Below, in pieces: positions 2,171-61,870 of a DNA stretch of 64,000 nt. The notes below the pieces were generated by a model. It did not search any database. It saw nothing but the letters and a program-made list of their open reading frames with translations, and had not been told where the DNA came from. The translations under genes and the position numbers were made by a program. This stretch comes from Ectothiorhodospira haloalkaliphila ATCC 51935 (GTDB lineage Bacteria; Pseudomonadota; Gammaproteobacteria; Ectothiorhodospirales; Ectothiorhodospiraceae). Position 1 is the stretch's first letter; each line of letters starts with the position of its first letter. The stretch is from contig NZ_KK214998.1 of NCBI RefSeq assembly GCF_000633935.1, positions 1,598,411 to 1,662,410 on the forward strand. The letters are read 5' to 3'.

Positions 2171-2725
2171 TCAGATGGAGCTCACGAAGATCAGCAGCAC
2201 GTTCAGCCCGATGATGGCCACCAGTGGCGACAGGTCCACCATGCCCGTCTGCGGCATGATGCGACGGATGGGGGCCAGAATGGGGTGGTTCAGGCTGAAA
2301 ACCAGGTCCGCCACCGGGTTGCGACCCATGGCGCCACCGGCCTGGAACCAGCTCATCACCGCCTGGATGATGATGCTGATGATGTAGATCCAGATCACCA
2401 GACGGACCAGCGCCAGCACACTCACTACAAACAGGGTGAAGATGGGCACGCCCACTCCGTGCAGCATGGCGATCAGCCATATCTCCAGCATCTTGAGCAA
2501 CAGCACCAGCACGAACGCCGCCGTGTCGATCCGGCCCATGGGGGGGATGAATCGGCGCAGCACCCGCAGCGGCGGATTGGTGACCGTGACCAGAAACTGG
2601 GATACCGGGTTGTAGAAATCCGCCCGGGCCATGGCCAGCAGGGTGCGGAGCATCACCGCCAGGATGTACAGGCTGAACAGGGTGGAAATCAGAAAGTCAG
2701 CGACGTTTTGAAACGCGTGCGTCAT
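2171..2725 (-). CDS. yggT: YggT family integral membrane protein
   Basis: A 184-residue membrane protein made of two YggT repeats. Each has a hydrophobic helix pair followed by an FYNPVSQ or GRNPVADL element and a proline/arginine-rich loop (LRVLRRFIPPMG, LAPIRRIMPQTG). The family is linked to osmotic tolerance in bacteria and to thylakoid assembly in plastids, but its mechanism is unknown. It lies 9 bases downstream of proC and is probably cotranscribed. Confidence 0.9.
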   Translation of the reverse strand: MTHAFQNVADFLISTLFSLYILAVMLRTLLAMARADFYNPVSQFLVTVTNPPLRVLRRFIPPMGRIDTAAFVLVLLLKMLEIWLIAMLHGVGVPIFTLFVVSVLALVRLVIWIYIISIIIQAVMSWFQAGGAMGRNPVADLVFSLNHPILAPIRRIMPQTGMVDLSPLVAIIGLNVLLIFVSSI

Positions 2726-50287: not shown

Positions 50288-51883
50288 TCACCCGGGACCA
50301 AAGTCCGCATGCAGCCAATGCCGGAACGCATCCATCCCGGCCGCCTGCCCAGGCTTTGGCGGGATGAGACCGGGCACAAAGCCCCGCTCACGAAAAGGTT
50401 GCAGCAGCGCGGGGTCCCGGCTGATGAGGTGGACGGGCACGGCGGGAGAGGCGTCCTCGCCGATGATCAACGGTGCCGCCTGATGGTCTCCCAGCAGGAT
50501 CAGCAGGGTGTCGTCTTCAAGGAACTGCAGCGCCCAGTCCAGGGAGACATGCAGCGAATAATCCACCGAACGGGCAAAGTAATCGCGGACCCGTTCCATG
50601 TCCTGCCAGAGCGTCTCGGGGCTTGGGCCGGCCTCCCCCCAGGGCGCGAAGATGCGCCCATCTCCTACCTGTTCCCAGTCCTCGATCAGGGGCAGAATCG
50701 GGGTCCAGGGGGCATGGCTGCTGACCAGGGCCACCTGGGCGAACAGCGGTGCGCTCACCTGCGCCCGCAAGGCATTGAAGCGATGCAGGGTGAACTGGTC
50801 GGGCATGGTCACCCAATTCAGCGGCGGGCCGGCATAGTCCAGGTCGGCGGCGGCGAAGATGTGATCAAAGCCGTAGGCGCGACCCTCGGGCCATGGCATG
50901 GTAATGGCTGGCATGACCGTCATGGTTTCGTGGCCGGTGGCCTTGAAATCATCCACCAGCGTTGGCAGCCCCAGTTCCAGCATGAGGCGATACCACAATG
51001 CGTTGTCGATCCACACGCCGCTCAGCATCGAGGCATGCGCCAGCCACGACTGCCCACCCAGGATGGGCGCGTCCAGGCGCCCGGTGACCGCATGCAGCCC
51101 CGCCGCTTCCAGACGAGGGGCCATGGCTTCAAGCCGCGGCAGCACAGGGCCGGAGAACCGCGGATCGTCGGTCAACGAGACTCCGTAGGATTCCACGAAA
51201 ACCAGATAGACATCGCGCCCGGCCAGGCCGGGCAGGGCCCGGGCCGGTCTGGCCCCGTCCACCACGGCGGTCTCGAACTGACGACGGGCATGGTGGGTCT
51301 CCCGGATCTGTCGGGACTGGAACGCCAGGGTATCCACCACCGGGGTGCGGGCTACGGGTACGACACGCTCGCCGGCCACCTCCAGCGCCGTGAGCACGGC
51401 GGCCAGGGTGCCGATAACCAGGGCGGGCACGGCCGCACTCCCCCCCAGCGGCACGGGCCGCAGCCCCCGGAAGACCAAGGCCAGGATCCCCAGGAGCAGC
51501 AGCGCCGTCACCACCAGGATCATGACCGCCAGCACCTGACCGAGATTGCCCACCAGCAGGTGATGGACCGAAACCAGGGCCGGCAGGTCGAAGTACAGGT
51601 TCAGCGATCGGCCCAGTATCTGATGGGTCGCCGCATCCCCCAGGCCCGCCGCCACGGCCAGCACCAGCAGCAAGGCCACCCCGGCGCGGGCGGCGTGGGG
51701 CGTCCAGTGGGCGGTCAGCCAGGCGAACAGAACCGGCAGCCACCAGGCCTCCAGGGCGATCCAGCGGCCGCCCACGTCCCCGAAGCGCAACCACAGCGGC
51801 AGCACCAGCATGATGTTGAGCAGCACTGCGGCCAGCAGCAGGGGCCAGCCGGCGATGGGGTCTGGGCGGGGTGTGACGGGCAT
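50288..51883 (-). CDS. Sulfatase/phosphoglycerol transferase-fold membrane protein
   Basis: A 531-residue protein with five or so N-terminal membrane helices (to about residue 170) and a periplasmic alkaline-phosphatase-superfamily domain. Likely metal and nucleophile motifs are YLVFVESYGVS, GGQSWLAHASMLSG and LLILLGDHQ. Relatives include phosphoglycerol and phosphoethanolamine transferases. It starts 39 bases from divergent opgG. Together with opgGH this suggests a decorating enzyme for periplasmic glucans (inference); no OpgB or OpgC is otherwise present. Confidence 0.82.
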   Translation of the reverse strand: MPVTPRPDPIAGWPLLLAAVLLNIMLVLPLWLRFGDVGGRWIALEAWWLPVLFAWLTAHWTPHAARAGVALLLVLAVAAGLGDAATHQILGRSLNLYFDLPALVSVHHLLVGNLGQVLAVMILVVTALLLLGILALVFRGLRPVPLGGSAAVPALVIGTLAAVLTALEVAGERVVPVARTPVVDTLAFQSRQIRETHHARRQFETAVVDGARPARALPGLAGRDVYLVFVESYGVSLTDDPRFSGPVLPRLEAMAPRLEAAGLHAVTGRLDAPILGGQSWLAHASMLSGVWIDNALWYRLMLELGLPTLVDDFKATGHETMTVMPAITMPWPEGRAYGFDHIFAAADLDYAGPPLNWVTMPDQFTLHRFNALRAQVSAPLFAQVALVSSHAPWTPILPLIEDWEQVGDGRIFAPWGEAGPSPETLWQDMERVRDYFARSVDYSLHVSLDWALQFLEDDTLLILLGDHQAAPLIIGEDASPAVPVHLISRDPALLQPFRERGFVPGLIPPKPGQAAGMDAFRHWLHADFGPG

Positions 51884-51922
51884 GGGCAGCGCAACATCGG
51901 AGTTCGGGGGCTGGCGCTCATT

Positions 51923-53428
51923 ATGCTGACCTTGTGCCTGGCCTGGCCAGCCGCCCGGGCCGACCTCCTGGATACCCTGGGCGAACGGGCCCAGCGACTG
52001 GCCGACTCACCCTGGCAGGCACCCCCCACCCTGGAGGCATCGGCCCTGAAGGCGCTGGACTACGATGCCCACCGGCAGATCCGTTTTCGCCCGGAACGGG
52101 CCCTGTGGCGGGAGGTGTCGGACTTTCAGGTGCAGTTCCTGCACGCGGGCTTCCTGTTCGCCCAGCCGTTGCGGGTGTACGAGTGGGTGGATGGACAACG
52201 CCGGCCCATCCACTTTCACCCGGACCTGTTCCGCTATGACGACGACGCAGCGCAGCTGGACCCGGAGCAGCGCGCCGCTGGCGGGCTCTCCGGGCTGCGC
52301 CTGCACTATCCCCTGAACCGGGAAGATGTCCGGGACGAGTTCCTGGTCTTCCAGGGGGCCTCCTACTTTCGCCTGGTGGGGCGCGGACAACGCTACGGCC
52401 TGTCCGCCCGCGGGCTGGCGGTGGATACCACCCGCCTGGGCTCGGAGGAGTTTCCGGCATTCACCGAGTTGCACCTGCAGCGGCCGGAGCCGGAGGATCG
52501 GCACGTCAACCTGTACGCCCTGCTGGAGGGTCCGTCGGTGACCGGCGCCTATGCCTTCCGGGTGCACACCACGGAGCCGGTCACGGTGGACGTTCAGGCC
52601 CGCCTGTTTGCTCGTCACGACCTTACGGGGCTGGGGATCGCGCCGCTGACCAGCATGTACACCCATGGGGATCTTGCCGACCCCATCACCGCGGATTTCC
52701 GTCCCCGGGTGCATGATTCGGAAGGCTTGCTGGTGCATACCCGGGCCGGGGAGTGGATCTGGCGCCCGTTGAGCCGTCCTGAGACGCCGCAGATCTCCGC
52801 CTTTCTGGATGCCGGCCCCTCGGCCTTCGGGCTGATGCAGCGAACCCGGGGATTTGCCGCCTACCTGGACCAGGAGGCCCGTTATGATCTGCGGCCCGGC
52901 CTCTGGGTGGAACCCGCGGAAGGGGACTGGGGCGCCGGCCGCGTGGTCCTGCTGGAGCTGCCCACGCCCGATGAGACCCACGACAATATCGTCGCCTTCT
53001 GGGCGCCGGATAAGCCCATGGCGGCCGGCGAGTCCCGTGAATTCAGCTACCGGCTGACACCCCTCTGGCAGCGACCCTCGGCCCATGAACTGGCCCGGGT
53101 GGTGCGTACCCGTGCCGGCGCCGCCGGGGTGCCGGGGCAGGGCGACCCCGTGCCCCTGGACCAGCGGCGTTTCGTGGTGGACTTCCAGGGTGGCCCCTTG
53201 AGTCGGCTGGACGGCTCGTTGCCTGTGCGCGCCCATCTGGACCTGCACCAGGGCCAGCCGGTGGAACCGCCCCAGGTCACGCCCTTGCCGGATGGCGGTT
53301 GGCGGGCCACCTTCGTGGTGGCCGCCAGCCCCGAGTCGCCCGCCGACATGCGTCTGCAGCTGAGGCTGCATGATCAGCTGCTCACCGAGACCTGGCAGTA
53401 CCTGTGGCGGGGGCCGGAAGATGCCTGA
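51923..53428 (+). CDS. opgG: Periplasmic glucan biosynthesis protein OpgG (MdoG)
   Basis: OpgG is a periplasmic protein that branches or processes osmoregulated periplasmic glucans made by OpgH. The 501-residue precursor has a short signal sequence (LCLAWPAARA). Conserved features include the N-terminal YDAHRQIRFRPERALW and the ASYFRLVGRGQRYGLSARGLA motif. The ATG at 51923 gives a rather short signal; an in-frame CTG four codons upstream would lengthen it. The stop overlaps the opgH start by 8 bp. Confidence 0.92.
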   Translation: MLTLCLAWPAARADLLDTLGERAQRLADSPWQAPPTLEASALKALDYDAHRQIRFRPERALWREVSDFQVQFLHAGFLFAQPLRVYEWVDGQRRPIHFHPDLFRYDDDAAQLDPEQRAAGGLSGLRLHYPLNREDVRDEFLVFQGASYFRLVGRGQRYGLSARGLAVDTTRLGSEEFPAFTELHLQRPEPEDRHVNLYALLEGPSVTGAYAFRVHTTEPVTVDVQARLFARHDLTGLGIAPLTSMYTHGDLADPITADFRPRVHDSEGLLVHTRAGEWIWRPLSRPETPQISAFLDAGPSAFGLMQRTRGFAAYLDQEARYDLRPGLWVEPAEGDWGAGRVVLLELPTPDETHDNIVAFWAPDKPMAAGESREFSYRLTPLWQRPSAHELARVVRTRAGAAGVPGQGDPVPLDQRRFVVDFQGGPLSRLDGSLPVRAHLDLHQGQPVEPPQVTPLPDGGWRATFVVAASPESPADMRLQLRLHDQLLTETWQYLWRGPEDA

Positions 53429-55211
53429 GGCGTCCGTCCTGCGTCGCCGCCGTCGCCTGTTCGGTCTGCTGGTCCTGGGCACCGGGGGGCTGGGAACGCT
53501 GGCCATGCACCAGGTGCTGGTGGCCACCGGGGCGGGGCTGCTGCAGGTGCCGCTGCTGGTGCTGTTCGCCATCCTGTTCACCTGGATTGCCCTGGCCTTC
53601 TGGAACGCAATGGTCGGGGCGTTGCTGCTGCACCGGCGCCTGGACCCCCTCACACTGAAGCCCCGCGCACCCGCCCCCATCCTGCGTGCCCCGCACCGTA
53701 CCGCGCTGATCATGCCCATCCGTCACGAGGATGCCGGGTTCGTGGGGGCCGGTCTGGCCGCCACGCTGGAGGACCTGGCGGCCAGTGGCGATCCCGATGG
53801 GTTCGAGGCCTTCGTGCTCAGTGACTCCAGCGATCCCGTTGTGCTGCACGACGAGGCCCGCATGGTGGTGGCGCTGCAGCGCCGCTTTGAAGGCAGGATT
53901 CCGGTGCATTACCGTCACGGGCGGGAGCCCGGGGGGCGCAAGGCGGGCAATATCGCGGAATTCTGCCGCCGCTGGGGCGGGCGCTACGAGGCCCTGGTGG
54001 TGCTGGATGCGGACAGCCGCATGAGTGGCCACACCCTGCGCCGCCTGGTGGCGGACCTGCAGGCCGACCCGCAGACCGGGCTGATCCAGACCGTGCCCCG
54101 GCCCATGGGGGCCGAGACCCTCCTGGCCCGGGTACAGGCCCTTGCGGCGCAGTTGCATGGGCCCCTGCTGGCCGCCGGCCAGGCCTTCTGGCAGGCGGAT
54201 ACCGCCAACTACTGGGGCCACAATGCCATCCTGCGCACCCGGGCCTTTGCCGATTGCTGCGGTCTGCCCCGCCTGCCCGGTGCCGCGCCCTGGGGCGGTG
54301 ACATCCTCAGCCATGATTTCGTCGAGGCGGCCTTGCTGCGTCGGGGCGGCTGGCACGTGCGCCTGGACACCGGCGCCGATGGCAGCCTTGAACAGGTGCC
54401 GGCCAACCTGTCGGACTACCTGCGCCGGGAACGGCGCTGGGCCCAGGGCAACCTGCAGCATCTGCGTCTGCTGGGTGTGCCGGGGCTGCATCCCCTCAGT
54501 CGGCTGCATTTCCTGCTGGGGGCACTGGGGTTCGTCTATGCGCCCCTGTGGGCGGCCATGCTGATGCTGGGGTTCGTCAGTCTGGCCACCGCCACGGAGG
54601 CGGGGTCCGCCGCCCTGACACCCGGGGCTATCCCGGAGACGGCCCTGTGGTTGCTGGGCGCGACCCTTGTCCTGCTGCTTGGTCCCAAGGTGGTCGGCCT
54701 GGCGTTAGTCCGCGACCGGCGCCACTCCTTCGGTGGCACGCTGCCATGGCTGGGGGGCGGGCTGCTGGAGATGCTGTCGGCGGTGCTGCTGGCCCCGGTG
54801 CTGATGGTCTTTCACACACTGTTCATCCTGCAGATCCTCGCCGGCAGACCGGTGTCCTGGGAGGCACCCTGTCGTGCCGGGCGCTTGCTGGGCTGGCGTC
54901 GCTGCCTGCGCCTGGGGCTGCCTCCGGCATTGCTGGGCCTGTGCTGGCTGGTGCTGTGTCTGCTCATCCTGCCGGCCCTGGCCCTGTGGAGTGCGCCGGT
55001 ATGGCTGGGTCTGATGCTGGCGCCGGTCCTGTTCCGCCTCAGCGGGCGGCGCGCGCCCTCCGGGCTGCTGGTCACGCCGCCGGCGGAGGCGGTGGCCCGA
55101 TCCCCCGCGGGGGAGGCGGTGGAACGACCGCCATCATCGGATCGCCCGTGTCCGCCACCGCCCGAGTCGCCGCTGGCGATGCCGGCCCGGATGCTCATCG
55201 GTCCGCCATGA
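53421..55211 (+). CDS. opgH: Glucan glucosyltransferase OpgH (MdoH), short form
   Basis: OpgH is the inner-membrane GT2 glucosyltransferase that makes the beta-1,2-glucan backbone. The 596-residue protein has RTALIMPIRHEDAG, VLDADSRMSGHTL, and the QxxRW-type RRERRWAQGNLQHL, with about seven or eight membrane helices. E. coli OpgH is about 850 residues; this one lacks most of the long cytoplasmic N-terminal region that binds FtsZ there. The C-terminal 50 residues are proline-rich. The stop overlaps the next gene as ATGA. Confidence 0.92.
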   Translation: MPEASVLRRRRRLFGLLVLGTGGLGTLAMHQVLVATGAGLLQVPLLVLFAILFTWIALAFWNAMVGALLLHRRLDPLTLKPRAPAPILRAPHRTALIMPIRHEDAGFVGAGLAATLEDLAASGDPDGFEAFVLSDSSDPVVLHDEARMVVALQRRFEGRIPVHYRHGREPGGRKAGNIAEFCRRWGGRYEALVVLDADSRMSGHTLRRLVADLQADPQTGLIQTVPRPMGAETLLARVQALAAQLHGPLLAAGQAFWQADTANYWGHNAILRTRAFADCCGLPRLPGAAPWGGDILSHDFVEAALLRRGGWHVRLDTGADGSLEQVPANLSDYLRRERRWAQGNLQHLRLLGVPGLHPLSRLHFLLGALGFVYAPLWAAMLMLGFVSLATATEAGSAALTPGAIPETALWLLGATLVLLLGPKVVGLALVRDRRHSFGGTLPWLGGGLLEMLSAVLLAPVLMVFHTLFILQILAGRPVSWEAPCRAGRLLGWRRCLRLGLPPALLGLCWLVLCLLILPALALWSAPVWLGLMLAPVLFRLSGRRAPSGLLVTPPAEAVARSPAGEAVERPPSSDRPCPPPPESPLAMPARMLIGPP

Positions 55212-56002
55212 GCACAGGGCGCGGGCAATGGCTGGAGCGGGGTGCCGCGGGCCTGGGGCTGGCCCGGTCCCTGGTGATCTACTGGCGCCCGGGGCGGCAG
55301 CCGGGGTTGCGTCGCCTGTATGGGCCGTTCGTACGCCCCGGGGATCTGGTCTTTGATGTGGGGGCCCATGTGGGCGACCGCACCCTGGCCTTCGCCGCCC
55401 TGGGGGCCCGGGTGGTGGCGGTGGAACCTCAACCCCTGCCACTGGCCTGGTTACGGTGGCTCACCCGGGGCCAGCCGGGCATCCACCTGGAAGCCGTGGC
55501 CCTGGACGACCGTCCCGGCTCGGCACGGCTGGCCATCAGCCGCCTGCATCCCACGGTGTCCACCCTGGCCCGGGAGTGGCGCCAGGCACTGCCGGAGCGA
55601 CATCCGGGCTTTCGACGGGTACGCTGGGAGGATGGCATCATGGTCCCCGTCACCACGCTGGATGATCTCATCGCCCGCCATGGCGTGCCGGCCTTCTGCA
55701 AGATCGACGTGGAGGGGCATGAGGCCCGGGTGCTGGCGGGCCTGTCACAACCTCTGCCGGCTCTGTCCGTCGAGTTCATCCAGGGCGCCCTGTCACAGGC
55801 CGAGGCGTGCATCGATCGCCTGGAAACCCTGGCGGCTTACGAGTACAACGTGGTGGCCGGCGAGCAGCGGCGCTTTCTCTGGCCCCGGTGGCGGCCGGCG
55901 ACGGCACTGCCCTCATGGCTGCAAGCCGGCGCCGCCGGCATCGCCTCAGGAGACCTCTATGCACGTTGGCCAAGACCGCTGGCAGGATCTGACCGCACCT
56001 GA
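55208..56002 (+). CDS. FkbM family methyltransferase
   Basis: A 264-residue SAM-dependent methyltransferase with motif I DLVFDVGAHVGDRTLAFAALG (about residues 46-66), VVAVEPQP, and the FkbM motif FCKIDVEGHEARVL. FkbM enzymes mostly O-methylate sugars or polyketides. It is translationally coupled to opgH by ATGA, so it could methylate a glucan. It also overlaps the next gene by 44 bp, joining it to the creatininase-RibD pair. Confidence 0.85.
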   Translation: MSTGRGQWLERGAAGLGLARSLVIYWRPGRQPGLRRLYGPFVRPGDLVFDVGAHVGDRTLAFAALGARVVAVEPQPLPLAWLRWLTRGQPGIHLEAVALDDRPGSARLAISRLHPTVSTLAREWRQALPERHPGFRRVRWEDGIMVPVTTLDDLIARHGVPAFCKIDVEGHEARVLAGLSQPLPALSVEFIQGALSQAEACIDRLETLAAYEYNVVAGEQRRFLWPRWRPATALPSWLQAGAAGIASGDLYARWPRPLAGSDRT

Positions 56003-56771
56003 GCTGGCGTCGCGGATGGGCCCGGAAACGGTCGCTGTCATGGTGCTGGGCGCCGTGGAACAGCACGGCCCCCACCTGCCCCTGTCCACCGACCTGGATA
56101 TCGGGCTGGGTCTGCTCACCGAGGCCCGCCGGCATTTGCCCGCGGACTTTCCCCTGCTGGTGATGCCTCCCCTGGCGTTGGGCAGCAGCGAGGAACATGG
56201 CGGGTTTCCCGGCACCCTGAGCCTGCCGCCGCAAACTGCGGTGGCGGTGCTCGAGGCCCTGGGCGAGGGGGTGTCCCGGGCGGGCGGTCGACGTCTGGTG
56301 TGGCTGAATGCCCATGGCGGCAATACCGCCATCATGGATCAGGCGGCCCTGGCACTGCGCCGTCGCCATGGGCTGCTGGTGATCAAGGCCACCTATACCC
56401 GTCTGGGCCAGCCTCCGGGCATCGATGCCGATGAATGGCGTCATGGCCTGCACGGGGGTGCCCTGGAAACGGCCCTGATGCGCCATCTGGCCCCGGAGCG
56501 GGTGCGCGAGGACCAGGTACGGGACTTCCCGGGCCGGGGCCAGTACCTGGTGGCGTCCGGCCACCGGTGGCTGGGGCCGGAGGGGGCCGGTGCCTTCGCC
56601 TGGCTTGCCGAGGATCTGCACCCTGATGGGGTCACGGGCGACGCCGCTGCAGGCACCGCCGAACTGGGGGCGCGCATCCTGGGATTTTACGGCGAGCGCC
56701 TGGCGCAACTGCTGCAGGAGGCCGCCAGCCTGCCATGGGACGCCCGGCCCGCCCCGGGCCCGAGGGACTGA
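55959..56771 (+). CDS. Creatininase family amidohydrolase
   Basis: A 270-residue protein starting at the ATG at 55959 with an AGGAG site. The metal-binding motifs are VEQHGPHLPLSTD near residue 33, GSSEEHGGFPGTL, and WLNAHGGN. Besides creatininases, the family includes archaeal ArfB (a deformylase in riboflavin and F420 precursor synthesis) and MftE. The RibD C-terminal-type reductase gene starts 3 bases later, which favours an ArfB-like step (inference). Confidence 0.85.
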   Translation: MHVGQDRWQDLTAPELASRMGPETVAVMVLGAVEQHGPHLPLSTDLDIGLGLLTEARRHLPADFPLLVMPPLALGSSEEHGGFPGTLSLPPQTAVAVLEALGEGVSRAGGRRLVWLNAHGGNTAIMDQAALALRRRHGLLVIKATYTRLGQPPGIDADEWRHGLHGGALETALMRHLAPERVREDQVRDFPGRGQYLVASGHRWLGPEGAGAFAWLAEDLHPDGVTGDAAAGTAELGARILGFYGERLAQLLQEAASLPWDARPAPGPRD

Positions 56772-56774
56772 ACA

Positions 56775-57647
56775 ATGGAGCATCAGATGGCATCGCTGGA
56801 GACACCCGAGTTGGCCTGGTCGCTGATCCTGCAGGTGCGTGACCATGACTGGAGCCGGCAGCCCCGCGGCCTCTGGCACCTCCCCGGCGGGGAGCTGAAG
56901 ATCACCGCTGGCGGGCACTGGCGCAGTCATGCCCTGATCGAACCGGAGGTGGCCCGGATGCTGGACTGCCTTCTCCCCCTGGCGGCCCACGACCGGCCCT
57001 GGGTCGTGGGCCAGCTGGGTCAGAGTCTGGATGGGCGCATCGCCACCCACACCGGAGCCTCGTATTACATCAGCGGCTGGGAGGCGCGGGTGCATCTGCA
57101 CCGTCTGCGGGCCCTGGCGGATGCCGTGCTCGTGGGCGCCGGCACCGCCGCCACCGACCGGCCGCAACTGACGGTGCGCCATGCGCCCGGGACCAGCCCG
57201 GCCCGTGTGGTGCTGGATCCGCGTGGGCGCGTGCCCCATGAGGGCCCCCTGTTCGAGGCGGCTGCGGATGCCGCGACGCCGCCCACCCTGTTGCTGCTGG
57301 GAAATGATGTGGGCCCGATGCCGGATCTGCCTGCCCATGTGCGCTGCCTGCACCTGGAAACGGACGAGGCCACGGGGCGCATCTGTCCCCAGCAGGTGCT
57401 GAACTGCCTGGCCCAGGCGGGCTATCGGCGGGTGCTGGTGGAAGGCGGCGGCGTGACCGTGTCACGGTTTCTTGAGGCGGGGTTGCTGGACCGGCTGCAT
57501 CTGCTGGTGGCGCCCATGGTGATCGGCTCCGGACGGCCGGGGCTGTCGCTGCCGCCCATCGACACCCTGGATCAGGCGCTGAGGCCCCGGGTGCGTCGCT
57601 TCACCTGTGGCGAGGACACCCTGTTCGACGTGGATCTCAGGGGCTGA
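56775..57647 (+). CDS. RibD C-terminal-type reductase with N-terminal extension
   Basis: A 290-residue protein. From about residue 77 it is a RibD C-terminal (dihydrofolate reductase-fold) domain: VVGQLGQSLDGRIATHTG, ADAVLVGAGTAATDRPQLT and VLVEGGGVTVSRFLEAGLLD. The first 75 residues are unrelated to the RibD deaminase domain and lack its HAE and PCxxC motifs. Such stand-alone domains include archaeal ArfC, which reduces the ribosylaminopyrimidine product of ArfB. The true substrate here is unknown. Its end overlaps the convergent gene by 11 bp. Confidence 0.87.
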   Translation: MEHQMASLETPELAWSLILQVRDHDWSRQPRGLWHLPGGELKITAGGHWRSHALIEPEVARMLDCLLPLAAHDRPWVVGQLGQSLDGRIATHTGASYYISGWEARVHLHRLRALADAVLVGAGTAATDRPQLTVRHAPGTSPARVVLDPRGRVPHEGPLFEAAADAATPPTLLLLGNDVGPMPDLPAHVRCLHLETDEATGRICPQQVLNCLAQAGYRRVLVEGGGVTVSRFLEAGLLDRLHLLVAPMVIGSGRPGLSLPPIDTLDQALRPRVRRFTCGEDTLFDVDLRG

Positions 57648-59568
57648 TCCCGGGGCGGGCGAAGACATCCCGGTGGCCCACCCACAAGCCCAGATGGCCC
57701 TCCCGCAGCGCCTCGCTCCGGGCCCCGTGCCAGGCAATGATGCGCGCCCGCTCCCCGGGGGCCTGCGCCAGCAGGGCGCCCCGCCAGCCGTCCAGCGTGG
57801 CCACCCCCAGGGTGCGAGCCTCCTCGCTGCCCGCCGGCAGACACCAGGGGCTGGGGCGCTGGTGCACCCGGTAACCCCGGGCCTGCAGGCGCCGGACAAG
57901 ACAGGACGGGGCCTCAGGTCCCAGGGCCGCCCCCAGGCCCTTGTTGCGCCGCTGATGGGCGTGGAACAGGGCTGTTGCCCAGGCATCCTCGGCATCGTCC
58001 TGTCGCCGGCCCTTGGCATCCAGAAAGCCCCGCGAGCCGTCCACCGATAGCGTCAGCAGCAGGGCAGTGCCCCCATGCGCGCAGGCATCCACCAGCTGTG
58101 ACAGCCACCTGGCCGACACCAGATCCAGCAGGGCGGAAGCGGTGACCAGCTGCGTGCCTGCCAGATCCGCAGCCGAAAGATCGGCCAGATCCGCCGTGCG
58201 CACCTGTCGCATCACGTTGCCCCCATGGGCATCATGGGGCGGCGCATCCGCCAGGGCTGCCGCCAGCAGATCCGGATCCTGGTCCCAGAGCGTCCAGTGC
58301 TGTGGTCCGGGTAGCCGGGGTGCCAGGTGGCGCAGGTTGTTGCCGGAGCCGGCCCCCAGGTCCAGGATGGGATGGGGCGCCTCGCAGCGATGTTTCAGCC
58401 AGGCCGCGGCGGCCCGGGTCAGGCGCGGGTGTCGGGCGCGGCTGTCGGCAGCGGCACGCAGGGCCAGCCAGTCGCCGGCAAAGCCCGCATCCCCGAGGCG
58501 GGGCGGCATGTCCAGTGCCACGGCAACCCGTCGGGCCGTTTCCGACCATTCGGGCAGGCGCCCCCGGGCGACCCGCGCCCCGGCGATCAGACGGGCCCGC
58601 AGCGAGGCATCCGTGAGCCAGCGCCGCAGGGCATCGGCCAGGGCCGGGGCGTCATCGGGCGGCACCGCCAGTCCGGCTCCGGGGGGCAGGGTGTCCTCCA
58701 GGGCGCCGCCGGTGGTGGTGATGACCGGCAGGCCCCGGGCCAGTGACTCGGTCACCACCATGCCATAGCCCTCGTAGCGGGAGGGCAACACGAATACCGA
58801 GGCCGCGTCGAAGGCCGCGGCCAGTCTTTCGGCGCCAAGCTCACCGTGCAGGGTGACCCGCCCCCCGAGGCCCAGGGCACGACACTGTCGGCGCAAGCCA
58901 TCCGTCCACGGGGGATCACGATCCGTGGAGCCCACCCAGTGGCAGTGCCAGGGCAGGTCCGTCAGATGATTCAGGGCCTCCAGCAGCACATCATGACCCT
59001 TGCGGGGGGCCAGGTGGGCCACGCAGAGCAGTTGCGGGATGGCCTGCTCCCCAAGGGTCGCATTATCCCGGGCGATGGCGCACAAGGGGGCCGGCGCCAC
59101 CCCTGGTGGTGCCACGTGGATCGATGCCGGCGGCAGGCCCAGTGCCTCCAGGCGCCGGGCGGTGAAATCGCTGGTGACGATGATCCGGCTCACCCGTTCC
59201 AGGGCACGGGTTTCCAGCTCCAGCAACTGATCACGCCGGGCGGGCGCCAGGCCACTTTCATCCCCCAGCGGATGATGCACCAGGGCGGTCAGGTCCAGGC
59301 GGTCCGCGTGGGTGTCGATCACCCCGGGAAAGGCGCCCATGGCGAGACCATCCAGCAGGGCGCGGGAACCCGCTGGCAGGGCTGCCAGGGCCTGATCCAG
59401 CGACCGTCGGGCCGTTTCATCAGGGCCGGGGAAGGCGCCGTCGAGCCCCGTTGGTGTGACGGTCCAGCCCGCCGCTTCCAGCTCCCGGGCCAGATGCCGG
59501 TCGTACAGATAGCCGCCGGTGATCTGCCCGGGATCTCCCGGCACCAGCAGGGTGAGCCGATGATTCAA
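57637..59568 (-). CDS. Fusion of GT4 glycosyltransferase and SAM methyltransferase
   Basis: A 643-residue two-domain protein. Residues 1-370 are a GT-B/GT4 glycosyltransferase: [17 protein letters not shown] at the N-terminus, the [15 protein letters not shown] motif, and [18 protein letters not shown]. Residues about 385-640 are a class I methyltransferase with [17 protein letters not shown] and [14 protein letters not shown]. The fusion implies that one product is both glycosylated and methylated. It overlaps the PTPS-like gene upstream by 4 bp. Confidence 0.87.
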
Positions 59569-59963
59569 AGCGGGCCCTCGAAGCCTGCCTGAGCCACATG
59601 GGACTCATGCAGGGTCACCGCCAGGGCAGACAGACCCCGGGCCGAGGCCCCCAGACGTCCCTCGCGGATGGCCACCGCGAGTCGGTCGAAGATCACCCGG
59701 GCCATGAACTCGGTGGTGGTGTTCTGCCCCTGGAAGGCTTCCACCTCGTCCAGGTTGCGATAGTTGAACTCACCCAGGATCTGATGGAGCACCTCGCTCG
59801 CCCGCCCGATGTCCACCACCAGGTTCTCCTCATCCAGTGCCTTGCGCTTGAAGCAGGCATCCACCACGTAGGTGGCGCCGTGCAGGCGCTGGGCCGGTCC
59901 GAAGGTCTCGCCGCTGAAGCTGTGGGCGATCATCATGTGATCTCTTACGTTCACCATGTACAC
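59565..59963 (-). CDS. Divergent 6-pyruvoyl-tetrahydropterin synthase/QueD-like protein
   Basis: A 132-residue protein of the PTPS/QueD (COG0720) family. The first zinc histidine (MMIAHSF) and the LHG histidine are present, but the usual HGH reads HGA. The cysteine before it is absent (FGPAQRLHG), and the catalytic DHHxLN motif reads EFNYRNLD. A glutamate near the C-terminus (LHESHV) is kept. Canonical PTPS or QueD catalysis therefore looks unlikely. It is cotranscribed with the GT-methyltransferase fusion and an oxidoreductase, so it probably makes or binds an unusual pterin-like intermediate (inference). Confidence 0.83.
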
Positions 59964-59984
59964 GGGGCTTCTCCTGGAATGTAT

Positions 59985-60986
59985 TCAAGGGTTGGACATC
60001 GCGGCGGGATACCGAATCCGATGACAGAGCACCTGGCCTGCCCCCTCCACCAGCGAGGGCATCACACGAGGCAGGTCAGCAAAATCCGATTCGCCACTGA
60101 TCAACCGGTCCAGCACCGGATCTCGCAGCAGATCCAGTGCCAGGGCCAGGCGGCGGCGATGATCCCAGCGGGTCGCGTGCGATGGCGGCAGTTGGCCCAC
60201 CTGGCTGGAGCGCAGGGTGAGCCGTCGGGCATGGAAGGCCTCGCCCAGGGGCAGGGTGACCGGCGTGTCGCCATACCAGCTCATCTCCAGCACCAGGGCC
60301 TCGTGGCCCGCCAGCTCCAGGGCCCGCACCAGTCCGGCCGGCTGGCCGCTGACGTGGATCACCCGGTCCTGTTCCGAGGGGGCATGCTCCGGGAGGGCGA
60401 AGCTGGCCCCCAGGGCCTGGGCCAGTGGGGCCCGTTCGGCCTGCAGATCCACCAGGGTCACCCGCGTGCCCGGGATGCGTGCCGCCAGGTAGGCCAGCAG
60501 GGCACCCACCACCCCGGCGCCGATGACGCACACCCGATCCCCGGGGCTGATCCCTGCATCCCAGATGCCGTTGATGGCGGTTTCCATGTTGGCCGCCAGC
60601 ACGGCCCGCCCCGGGGGCAGGTCCTCGGGCAGCGAGGTCACCGCCGTGGCAGGCACCTGATAAATATCCTGGTGGGGGTGCAGACAGAAGACCCTCTGGC
60701 CCTCCAGCTCGTCAGGGCCGGCCTCCACCCGGCCCACGCTGGCATAACCGTATTTCACCGGTCCGGGAAAGGCCCCCGCCTGAAAGGGGGCACGCATGCG
60801 CTCATGCTCCGAGGGCGGCACGCGCCCCTGAAACACCAGGGACTCGGTGCCCCGGCTGATGCCGCTGTAGAGTGCCATCACCCGCACCTGGCCGGCGGGC
60901 AGCGGCGGTATTGCCTCCCGGCGCAGCTCTCCCTGACCGGGGCCGGGTATCCAGAAGGCGGTGGCGGCGGCACTGTTGGTGGACAT
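59985..60986 (-). CDS. MDR-superfamily (zinc-type) dehydrogenase
   Basis: A 333-residue medium-chain dehydrogenase/reductase with ALYSGISRGTESLVFQGR, GYASVGRVEAG and a Rossmann motif VIGAGVVGALLAYLAAR. The structural-zinc cysteine quartet is absent, and the catalytic cysteine position looks replaced by serine. The N-terminal SGISRGTE motif recalls BchC-type and related oxidoreductases. It is the first gene of the leftward three-gene group; the substrate is unknown. Confidence 0.82.
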   Translation of the reverse strand: MSTNSAAATAFWIPGPGQGELRREAIPPLPAGQVRVMALYSGISRGTESLVFQGRVPPSEHERMRAPFQAGAFPGPVKYGYASVGRVEAGPDELEGQRVFCLHPHQDIYQVPATAVTSLPEDLPPGRAVLAANMETAINGIWDAGISPGDRVCVIGAGVVGALLAYLAARIPGTRVTLVDLQAERAPLAQALGASFALPEHAPSEQDRVIHVSGQPAGLVRALELAGHEALVLEMSWYGDTPVTLPLGEAFHARRLTLRSSQVGQLPPSHATRWDHRRRLALALDLLRDPVLDRLISGESDFADLPRVMPSLVEGAGQVLCHRIRYPAAMSNP

Positions 60987-61123
60987 GGCGGAATCTTTCG
61001 GCGTCGGCGCCTGTCAGTGGCTTCAGGGGCAGCATAGGCCCGAACGGGCCGGGTGTCTTCCCCCGCATGGGCCTGCCGGCCCGCAGGCATCGGTCAGCAT
61101 CAGGCATCGGGAGCGCGCGCGAC

Positions 61124-61870
61124 GTGGATAAAGCGGCAGAGATATTGAAGGGCAGGGTGGCTGATCCAAAGTCGCCCCCCCGGCGCCTGCTCCCTGATTT
61201 GCTGGTGGCCCTGGGCCTGCTGCTGGCGGGCCTGGCGTGGCTGATGGGTGCGGGGCCGCTGTCCCTGATGGCCGCGACCGGGGCCATCCTGGCCTATACG
61301 CTGCTGGCCCTGCTGCTGCTGAGAGCCTGGTCGGCGCCCTCGGGCGGGTTCGGCTGGCCCAACCGGGTGACCCTGGTGCGCGCCCTCCCGGCCTGTGTGC
61401 TGGCGGGCGCCCTGATGCAGCCGGAGCTGTACCGCGAGCACGGTACGCTGCTGGCCGGTCTGGCCGTGGCGGCCCTGTTGCTGGATGGCCTGGATGGCTG
61501 GCTGGCCCGACGGCTGGACGCCGCCACGGCCTTCGGCGCCCGCTTCGACATGGAACTGGACGCGGCCCTGATCCTGGTGCTGTGCCTGGGGCTGGCCCTG
61601 TCGGGCAAGGTGGGGGCGTGGGTCCTGGCCATCGGCCTGATGCGTTACGCCTTCGTGGCTGCCGGATATTGGGAGCCTCGACTGCAGCAGGCCCTGCCCG
61701 ACAGCCATCGGCGCAAGGCCGTTTGTGTCTGGCAGGTGCTGGCCCTGCTGGCCTGCCTGCCTGGTTTTGTCAGCGGGTCTTTGGCCACCGGGCTGGCGGC
61801 CTCGGCGCTGCTGGCGTTGACGGTATCCTTTGGTCTGGATGTGCGCTGGCTGGTGCGAAGGGTACGGTGA
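61124..61870 (+). CDS. CDP-alcohol phosphatidyltransferase family protein
   Basis: A 248-residue membrane protein with the full signature D(x2)DG(x2)AR(x8)G(x3)D(x3)D, present as DGLDGWLARRLDAATAFG plus ARFDMELD, and about six helices. The family joins CDP-activated lipids to an alcohol headgroup. The GTG at 61124 has GGGAG 10 bases upstream; an ATG at 61067 is the alternative. It is divergent from the MDR dehydrogenase gene, so it may lipid-link a product of the neighbouring pathway (inference). Confidence 0.85.
   Translation: MDKAAEILKGRVADPKSPPRRLLPDLLVALGLLLAGLAWLMGAGPLSLMAATGAILAYTLLALLLLRAWSAPSGGFGWPNRVTLVRALPACVLAGALMQPELYREHGTLLAGLAVAALLLDGLDGWLARRLDAATAFGARFDMELDAALILVLCLGLALSGKVGAWVLAIGLMRYAFVAAGYWEPRLQQALPDSHRRKAVCVWQVLALLACLPGFVSGSLATGLAASALLALTVSFGLDVRWLVRRVR

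Follow-up and report, generated by a model that had tools for sequence, protein, structure and literature searches.

Natural products whose synthesis is initiated by GTP cyclohydrolase II (GCHII), such as the pyrimidotriazines, are known, and the archaeal and fungal branch of riboflavin biosynthesis (ArfA/ArfB/ArfC; Rib7) combines opening of the GTP ring, a creatininase-family protein, and a stand-alone RibD_C reductase that acts before deamination. These elements recur in a family of gene clusters that we studied starting from a locus of Ectothiorhodospira haloalkaliphila ATCC 51935 (GCF_000633935.1; genome of 3.45 Mb in four contigs), contained in a 64,000-nt stretch of contig NZ_KK214998.1 that is called the window here. 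Beside a creatininase and a RibD_C protein, the locus encodes a protein resembling 6-pyruvoyl-tetrahydropterin synthase (PTPS-like), an MDR-superfamily oxidoreductase (MDR), a GT4 glycosyltransferase-methyltransferase fusion, an FkbM-family methyltransferase, and a CDP-alcohol phosphatidyltransferase. The cluster looks like an undescribed assembly line, present in many bacteria and some archaea, that turns GTP into a sugar-bearing, methylated, and probably membrane-attached molecule. We put the probability at roughly two in three that it is a GTP-derived pathway to a glycosylated, methylated, lipid-linked product with the steps proposed below. No description of the cluster was found in the literature searched, which consisted of open-licence PMC papers.

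In the proposed pathway, a dedicated GTP cyclohydrolase of type II or III would convert GTP to the phosphoribosylated diaminopyrimidine DAROPP, as gene association in relatives suggests. The stand-alone RibD_C protein, judging from its residues, would then reduce the ribose of DAROPP to ribitol without deamination to give DARIPP, which the zinc-less PTPS-like protein and MDR might turn into a pyrimidine- or pterin-type core. The GT4 enzyme would add a sugar, and one or more methyltransferases would add methyl groups. In a final, lineage-dependent step, the CDP-alcohol transferase could link the product via phosphate to a lipid. A flippase-like protein (LPG_synthase_TM), where present, could move it across the membrane, and C11, a membrane protein encoded next to mdoG, may transfer the head-group to an acceptor, for example the glucan of MdoGH. 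Sequence shows that the gene set is conserved, that relatives have dedicated GTP-opening enzymes, which residue RibD_C carries at its specificity position, and that the PTPS site is lost; from these features we infer every reaction, the substrates after the second step, the lipid linkage, and the acceptor.

A contig scan with the GT4-methyltransferase fusion identified 166 relatives in public genome contigs, and the best 80 were analyzed with up to 10 kb on each side. Several of these 80 loci are cut by contig ends, and most come from halomonads; judged by their titles, 11 do not (L032, L046, L076, L077, L078, L080, L082, L086, L103, L106, and L109). In the best 80 of 166 loci, the PTPS-like gene was found in 77, a methyltransferase in 76, MDR in 75, RibD_C in 73, the CDP-alcohol transferase in 72, a PF03706 flippase-like gene in 71, the creatininase in 70, GCHII in 68, FkbM in 56, C11 in 56, mdoH in 49, and mdoG in 39 to 57, depending on the method. 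To remove the selection for GT4, 276 genomes drawn evenly from the class were searched with profiles. The PTPS-like profile matched 13 of them. The MDR profile matched 17, of which 13 (309 to 566 bits) were exactly the PTPS-like genomes and 4 (192 to 213 bits) had no PTPS-like match. The RibD_C profile matched 14 genomes, namely, 12 of the 13 PTPS-like carriers at ≥209 bits and 2 others at 141 to 172 bits; in the thirteenth carrier, G261 (L154), RibD_C was found by blastp. The co-occurrence in other genomes by which the first-pass annotation of the locus had proposed to check its pathway was thus observed, with PTPS-like and MDR genes in the same 13 genomes and RibD_C in 12 of 13 at the cut-off. 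The 18 regions read from class genomes include several from one genome and one lone creatininase relative without the cluster (L166). Among 299 genomes drawn from the phylum, 21 matched the PTPS-like profile, 12 of them outside the class; MDR and GT4 were present in all 15 of the 21 loci that were read, and RibD_C and a methyltransferase were each present in 13.

Where a stretch held both genes, MDR and PTPS-like were same-strand neighbors in 74 of 75 contig loci and in 12/12, 15/15, and 11/12 cases in the remaining sets. This near-perfect pairing suggests that the two proteins act on one intermediate. By comparison, 40 control stretches of 18 kb, taken at round coordinates in carrier genomes, gave no match to query proteins of 16 families (E value of 1e-6).

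Cluster genes were also found on plasmids of Methylosinus, Thiodictyon, Rhizobium, Peteryoungia, Palleronia, Rhodobacteraceae, Microbacterium, Arthrobacter, Streptomyces, and Haloarcula. Twenty plasmid records had a PTPS-like match; of the 13 opened, 10 carried cluster genes alongside and 3 did not. Three Haloarcula records were found through an MDR search, and two were opened. The 12 plasmid loci counted here exclude three stretches with a PTPS-like gene alone (L204, L206, and L212) and L218, a fragment of MDR at a different place on the L212 record. In Streptomyces globisporus (L211), the CDP-alcohol transferase, MDR, PTPS-like, GT4, methyltransferase, flippase, RibD_C, creatininase, and GCHII genes occur with the strands and order of the halomonad loci, save that the creatininase and GCHII genes are swapped. 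An S. fungicidicus plasmid has the same gene set beside its PTPS-like gene, but without RibD_C in the stretch. The cluster is a conserved unit and is horizontally spread. Two genomes of only 1.0 to 1.1 Mb, from two genera of one family (G162/L153 and G261/L154), retain the CDP-alcohol transferase, MDR, PTPS-like, GT4, methyltransferase, flippase, and RibD_C genes, and the product is therefore probably important to streamlined life.

Some other stretches were recorded in the same searches. The PTPS-like genes of L204, L206, and L212 lie near cupin, MBL-fold, and YbaB or MEKHLA genes, and the record of L212 has an MDR relative (46% of the query covered) about 39 kb from its PTPS-like gene. The stretches L094, L097, and L100 contain GT4 relatives with no PTPS-like or MDR gene, and the GT4 relatives of L097 and L100 adjoin MdoG and MdoH. 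L109, a 5-kb contig titled Natrialbaceae archaeon, holds a halomonad-like copy and is probably mis-binned.

Of the contig loci (the best 80 of 166), 68 have a GTP cyclohydrolase gene beside the cluster, as do 4 of the 18 class regions, 6 of the 15 phylum loci, and 7 of the 12 plasmid loci (2 of these encode GTP cyclohydrolase III [GCH III]); on plasmids, in-cluster GCHII occurs in rhizobia and in Streptomyces. The proteobacterial in-cluster GCHII proteins retain the zinc Cys residues and the catalytic Tyr wherever these sites are covered, and in L069 and L099 the GCHII gene is split across two frames. In Haloarcula, the enzyme is GCH III (PF05165; 276.5 bits in L216), which belongs to a different family and whose gene overlaps that of MDR. 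Because two GTP-opening families were recruited to the same MDR/PTPS/CDP-alcohol set, GTP is strongly indicated as the starting material; we consider this the best evidence on that point. The associated GTP cyclohydrolase for which the first-pass annotation had suggested searching thus turned up, as type II in the contig loci and Streptomyces and as type III (ArfA) in Haloarcula.

The RibD_C protein of the window has a PF01872 domain only, with no deaminase domain, and its best solved relatives are 6p8c and 2azn. PMC3631187 describes a Lys of bacterial RibD that favors the deaminated substrate and separates enzymes using AROPP from those using DAROPP, with Thr in fungi and Asn in archaea at this position. 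The Lys position maps to Gln80 in the window protein, which retains the catalytic Asp128 and Glu223. Of 107 cluster RibD_C proteins read (18 of 125 loci gave none), 99 have Gln, 8 have His, and none has Lys at this position; the catalytic Asp is present in all 107 and the Glu in 105, the other two not being covered. A further set of 23 relatives, which partly overlaps the 107, has Gln throughout, while housekeeping RibDs have Lys in 9 of 9 cases, that of the host genome included. Since the Lys is replaced and the deaminase domain is missing, RibD_C is predicted to reduce DAROPP to DARIPP, with the qualification that the known non-Lys residues are Thr and Asn rather than Gln and His. The likeness to ArfC drawn in the first-pass annotation accordingly extends to the residue class expected for an ArfC/Rib7-type substrate.

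GCHII and RibD_C are enzyme types of riboflavin synthesis, and three genomes (G190, G283, and G011) showed no intact GCHII other than the in-cluster one, so the locus might instead be a second way of making the ribitylaminopyrimidine needed for vitamin B2, set among unrelated neighbor genes. We judge this very improbable. The RibD of the housekeeping rib locus in the host genome is of the Lys type, whereas the cluster RibD_C has neither the deaminase domain nor the Lys; G277 and G264 carry a separate intact RibA besides; and the tightest partners in the cluster (MDR, GT4, methyltransferase, and CDP-alcohol transferase) are ones that riboflavin synthesis does not need. No recognizable intact GTP cyclohydrolase II or III was found in the host (L001; G000:C2:379851-380339) or in 16 further genomes, although, by its open reading frames, the host has genes for riboflavin synthase, RibBA, RibH, and RibD.

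The PTPS-like protein differs from the enzymes whose domain it shares. It keeps His14 and His28, but Ala30 stands in place of the third zinc His, and the catalytic Cys is absent (18 of 18 aligned sequences); we take these residues to have the zinc-binding and catalytic roles that their names imply. In the L154 protein, from a 1-Mb genome, Thr occupies the Ala30 position. The QueD score is 45 against a cut-off of 89.25. A profile of the family matched PDB entry 3d7j, named "uncharacterized protein SCO6650" in the database, over its full length (positions 1 to 132; E value of 2.8e-63), and the next solved relative reached 1.2e-5. Because the zinc/Cys site is lost, we did not file the protein as PTPS or QueD, and the known action of PTPS enzymes on GTP-derived compounds, on which the first-pass annotation had relied, does not carry over to it. 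The MDR protein was recognized through its AlphaFold model (pLDDT of 87.5), which in a fold search matched zinc-type alcohol dehydrogenases (best E value of 5.9e-20).

The creatininase contains E-H-D and H-GG-E motifs, which presumably have metal roles, and it falls below the cut-offs of named equivalogs (creatininase, 68.9 versus 235; MftE, 111.4 versus 172). Creatininases were found in 16 of the 276 class genomes. Six of the 13 carriers scored about 330 bits or higher, and G264 had a 206-bit match located on a different contig; the remaining 9 genomes, which have no PTPS-like match, gave 111 to 256 bits. As 6 of the 13 class carriers lack it at the cut-off used, the creatininase was rejected as a core gene; it is an accessory of the cluster. 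In a Gemmatimonadales contig, creatininase and RibD_C form one fusion of 603 residues (L080:7706-9517).

The creatininase might be an ArfB-type deformylase in a pathway that runs via the formyl compound FAPy, as in archaea. In the Streptomyces in-cluster GCHII proteins (L210 and L211), and in these two copies only, Met occupies the position of the catalytic Tyr. A Tyr-to-Met change of this kind in GCHII, studied in SCO6655, reportedly gives the formylated product FAPy. The creatininase gene adjoins that of the Streptomyces GCHII, and Haloarcula uses GCH III, both of which fit such a route. If the creatininase were a deformylase, Met would be expected in the in-cluster GCHII, yet all proteobacterial copies read at this site keep Tyr, even though 70 of the contig loci (the best 80 of 166) include a creatininase; since GCHII beside the creatininase keeps its catalytic Tyr in proteobacteria, no formyl group should remain for removal there. 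Moreover, the window and Streptomyces creatininases are only 28% identical, the cluster lacks a creatininase in two of the three genus members that carry it (G007 and G009/L032), and two genomes in which PTPS-like is absent (G128 and G234) have creatininases of >250 bits. We therefore kept the formyl route only as a rival, and an improbable one. The ArfB role assigned in the first-pass annotation thus draws something from the Streptomyces Met residue and is otherwise less well supported, given the carriers without a creatininase and the proteobacterial Tyr.

The membrane side of the pathway is suggested by the CDP-alcohol transferase, the flippase-like protein, and a predicted head-group transferase, which together would provide for attachment of the product to the membrane. 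Across the 125 loci, the upstream neighbor of MDR is the CDP-alcohol transferase gene in 87 loci, a gene for an MdoH-like glycosyltransferase in 10 loci of other lineages, the GCHII gene in 3, and the GCH III gene in 2; in the remaining loci, a different gene stands there, or none of the set, or the stretch lacks an MDR/PTPS pair. The window protein and 93 of 125 loci have the entire motif D(2)DG(2)AR(8-9)G(3)D(3)D. The CDP-alcohol transferase gene also lies near MDR in Haloarcula and adjoins it upstream in Actinomycetota.

C11 has about four hydrophobic segments, and residues E231, S279, D466, and H467 are invariant in 12 aligned rows; we assume active-site roles for these Glu, Ser/Thr, and Asp-His positions. 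By sequence alone, C11 had no match among solved proteins at E values up to 1. Its AlphaFold model (pLDDT of 82.5) matched LtaS, LtaP, GacH, and EptC at Z scores of 19.9 to 21.9 over 259 to 264 residues (19 to 22 with EptA included), with sulfatases at ≤18.5. Enzymes of the former types move phospholipid head-groups onto glycans or lipids, and C11 is predicted from its modeled fold to be a head-group phosphotransferase of the LtaS/EptA/OpgB type. In L086 and L106, FkbM and C11 stay with the cluster although MdoGH is absent. MdoG was considered as a housekeeping gene, a view rejected in the genus of the window from its distribution (3 of 3 genomes with the cluster RibD_C versus 0 of 7 without). 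Of 12 other genomes, 7 have no MdoG and 5 have two or three copies, all outside cluster stretches, so the link between MdoG and the cluster is lineage specific.

Two further envelope genes recur at these loci: YceI (PF04264), presumably a lipid- or quinone-binding fold, in 17 of 125 loci and cytochrome b561 (PF01292) in 11 of 125. They never occurred together and were found in none of the 40 control stretches, the queries having been taken from these loci. Cytochrome b561 lies between the methyltransferase and RibD_C in L189, L190, L197, L198, and L205, and in rhizobia, in Thiodictyon, and in several genomes that do not belong to the class it lies inside or adjoins the cluster (e.g., L207:12026-12565, L214, and L205). 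These neighbors hint at a redox-active envelope molecule. A more specific product can be sketched, namely, a membrane- or glucan-anchored redox cofactor common to bacteria and haloarchaea, in which a reduced, glycosylated, methylated pterin or diaminopyrimidine made from GTP sits on a phospholipid head-group or a periplasmic glucan and is served by YceI or cytochrome b561; this is a tentative and, for now, rather doubtful extension.

The product could instead be soluble, a pterin or pyrimidine that is glycosylated and methylated and serves as a cofactor or pigment, with the CDP-alcohol transferase, flippase, MdoGH, and C11 independently serving envelope lipids or glucans. Pterin glycosides are known from cyanobacteria, and the most constant parts of the cluster are RibD_C, MDR, PTPS-like, and GT4. 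Many loci, alphaproteobacterial ones among them, have no CDP-alcohol transferase, and a Rhodobacteraceae locus (L208) carries only MDR, PTPS-like, methyltransferase, and RibD of the set. Against these points stand the position of the CDP-alcohol transferase gene upstream of MDR in 87 of 125 loci, Actinomycetota included, its proximity to MDR in Haloarcula, its retention in the two 1-Mb genomes, and the recurrence across several lineages of envelope genes (flippase, C11, MdoH, and YceI or cytochrome b561) that the 40 control stretches lack. On this evidence we regard a soluble product as unlikely.

Several observations weigh against the proposed pathway. The host genome gave no intact GCHII or GCH III in family searches, which did not extend to other GTP cyclohydrolase families. 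Its sole PF00925 match is the RibBA of the riboflavin locus, whose RibA part has no zinc cysteines, as is the case in all ten genus members; among 17 genomes, these ten included, none reaches the curated RibA score and none has GCH III (PF05165). Eight of the 13 class carriers (G000, G098, G158, G162, G175, G257, G261, and G272), all among these 17, have no recognized GCHII or GCH III, and the entry step is therefore unproven in them; G277 does have an intact RibA, but not within the cluster. The first-pass annotation, which saw no GTP cyclohydrolase in the window, had the entry step supplied from elsewhere: relatives do carry the enzyme beside these genes, but no intact enzyme of type II or III was recognized elsewhere in the host. 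The 80 contig loci are not independent, being the best 80 of 166 and mostly from halomonads. The three Streptomyces plasmid stretches L204, L206, and L212 have PTPS-like without the remaining cluster, and in G098 the cluster genes are dispersed across three contigs (in G011, they are in two places). The Haloarcula stretch has no RibD_C and no similar GT4, and its PTPS-like protein is more distant and retains an HxH motif. The flippase-like gene, creatininase, FkbM, C11, and MdoGH are optional parts. Finally, many alphaproteobacterial loci have an MdoH-like glycosyltransferase in place of the CDP-alcohol transferase, so lipid linkage cannot be universal.

The features of the locus are listed in Table 1. 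All seven genes that the first-pass annotation named between 55208 and 61870 are present, as established by open reading frames and Pfam or NCBIfam scores and, for MDR, by the fold model. The block itself is wider than those seven genes and extends back to 50288, since the FkbM start overlaps the mdoH stop by 4 bp and mdoH, FkbM, and C11 recur with the cluster at the frequencies given above. The gene overlaps are real: FkbM and creatininase genes share 44 bp, the convergent RibD_C and GT4-methyltransferase genes share 11 bp, and the GT4-methyltransferase and PTPS-like genes share 4 bp, while the CDP-alcohol transferase gene is divergent from that of MDR. The methyltransferase half of the GT4 fusion falls just below Pfam cut-offs; in many other lineages, GT4 and methyltransferase are two separate genes. 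No flippase-like gene (PF03706/LPG_synthase_TM) was found in the window. Elsewhere in the window, ARAGORN called a tRNA-Cys with anticodon ACA (positions 2328 to 2415, minus strand), which is unusual for bacteria and possibly a false call.

Table 1. Features of the cluster and its flank in the E. haloalkaliphila window (window coordinates)
Feature	Coordinates	Strand	Evidence
C11, membrane protein with alkaline-phosphatase-superfamily domain	50288..51883	-	PF00884, 26.6 bits (cut-off 25)
MdoG/OpgG periplasmic glucan synthesis protein	51920..53428	+	PF04349, 572.9 bits; start uncertain
MdoH/OpgH glucosyltransferase	53370..55211	+	NCBIfam MdoH, 636 bits (cut-off 419)
FkbM-family methyltransferase	55208..56002	+	PF05050, 51.4 bits (cut-off 22.7); TIGR01444, 88.4 bits (above cut-off)
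Creatininase-family amidohydrolase	55959..56771	+	PF02633, 201.6 bits (cut-off 31.3)
Stand-alone RibD_C reductase, 290 aa	56775..57647	+	PF01872, 124.3 bits (cut-off 24.1)
GT4 glycosyltransferase-class I methyltransferase fusion	57637..59568	-	GT4, 108 bits; methyltransferase part, 24.6 bits (Pfam cut-off 27)
PTPS-like protein, SCO6650 subfamily	59565..59963	-	PF01242, 77.2 bits (cut-off 22.4)
MDR-superfamily oxidoreductase	59985..60986	-	No Pfam domain above cut-off by sequence; fold match of AlphaFold model
CDP-alcohol phosphatidyltransferase	61124 (GTG) or 61145 (TTG)..61870	+	PF01066, 60.9 bits (cut-off 22); start codon uncertain

Taken together, the pathway interpretation of the first-pass annotation stands in part: its central proposal of a GTP-derived locus is supported, the ArfB role is less well supported, the PTPS analogy does not carry over, and the family searches recognized no intact entry enzyme (GCHII or GCH III) in the host. 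If the pathway is as proposed, genes annotated in public genomes as "6-carboxytetrahydropterin synthase," "RibD family protein," and "zinc-binding alcohol dehydrogenase" would belong to a GTP-derived pathway, the solved protein SCO6650 would gain a genomic setting, and the cell envelope would have a new source of GTP-derived aromatic molecules.

Compared with the archaeal and fungal riboflavin branch, the cluster adds the PTPS-like protein, MDR, GT4, methyltransferase, and CDP-alcohol transferase; no deaminase, lumazine synthase, or riboflavin synthase gene was seen in it, and the bacterial clusters have GCHII instead of GCH III. The PTPS-like protein shares the PTPS Pfam domain with QueD and 6-pyruvoyl-tetrahydropterin synthase and differs from them by the missing third zinc His and catalytic Cys. 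Its full-length match is S. coelicolor SCO6650 (3d7j), and in S. globisporus and S. fungicidicus the plasmid-borne gene set adjoins a gene of this kind; we know of no pathway for SCO6650. C11 has the fold and the acidic and His active-site positions of LtaS, EptA, and OpgB but only 10 to 15% identity with them, and sulfatases, of the same fold, match at lower Z scores. As in pyrimidotriazine-type pathways, a dedicated GCHII paralogue would feed a RibD-like enzyme; unlike those pathways, the cluster has no deaminase, carries membrane-linking genes, and is spread across several phyla and an archaeal genus.

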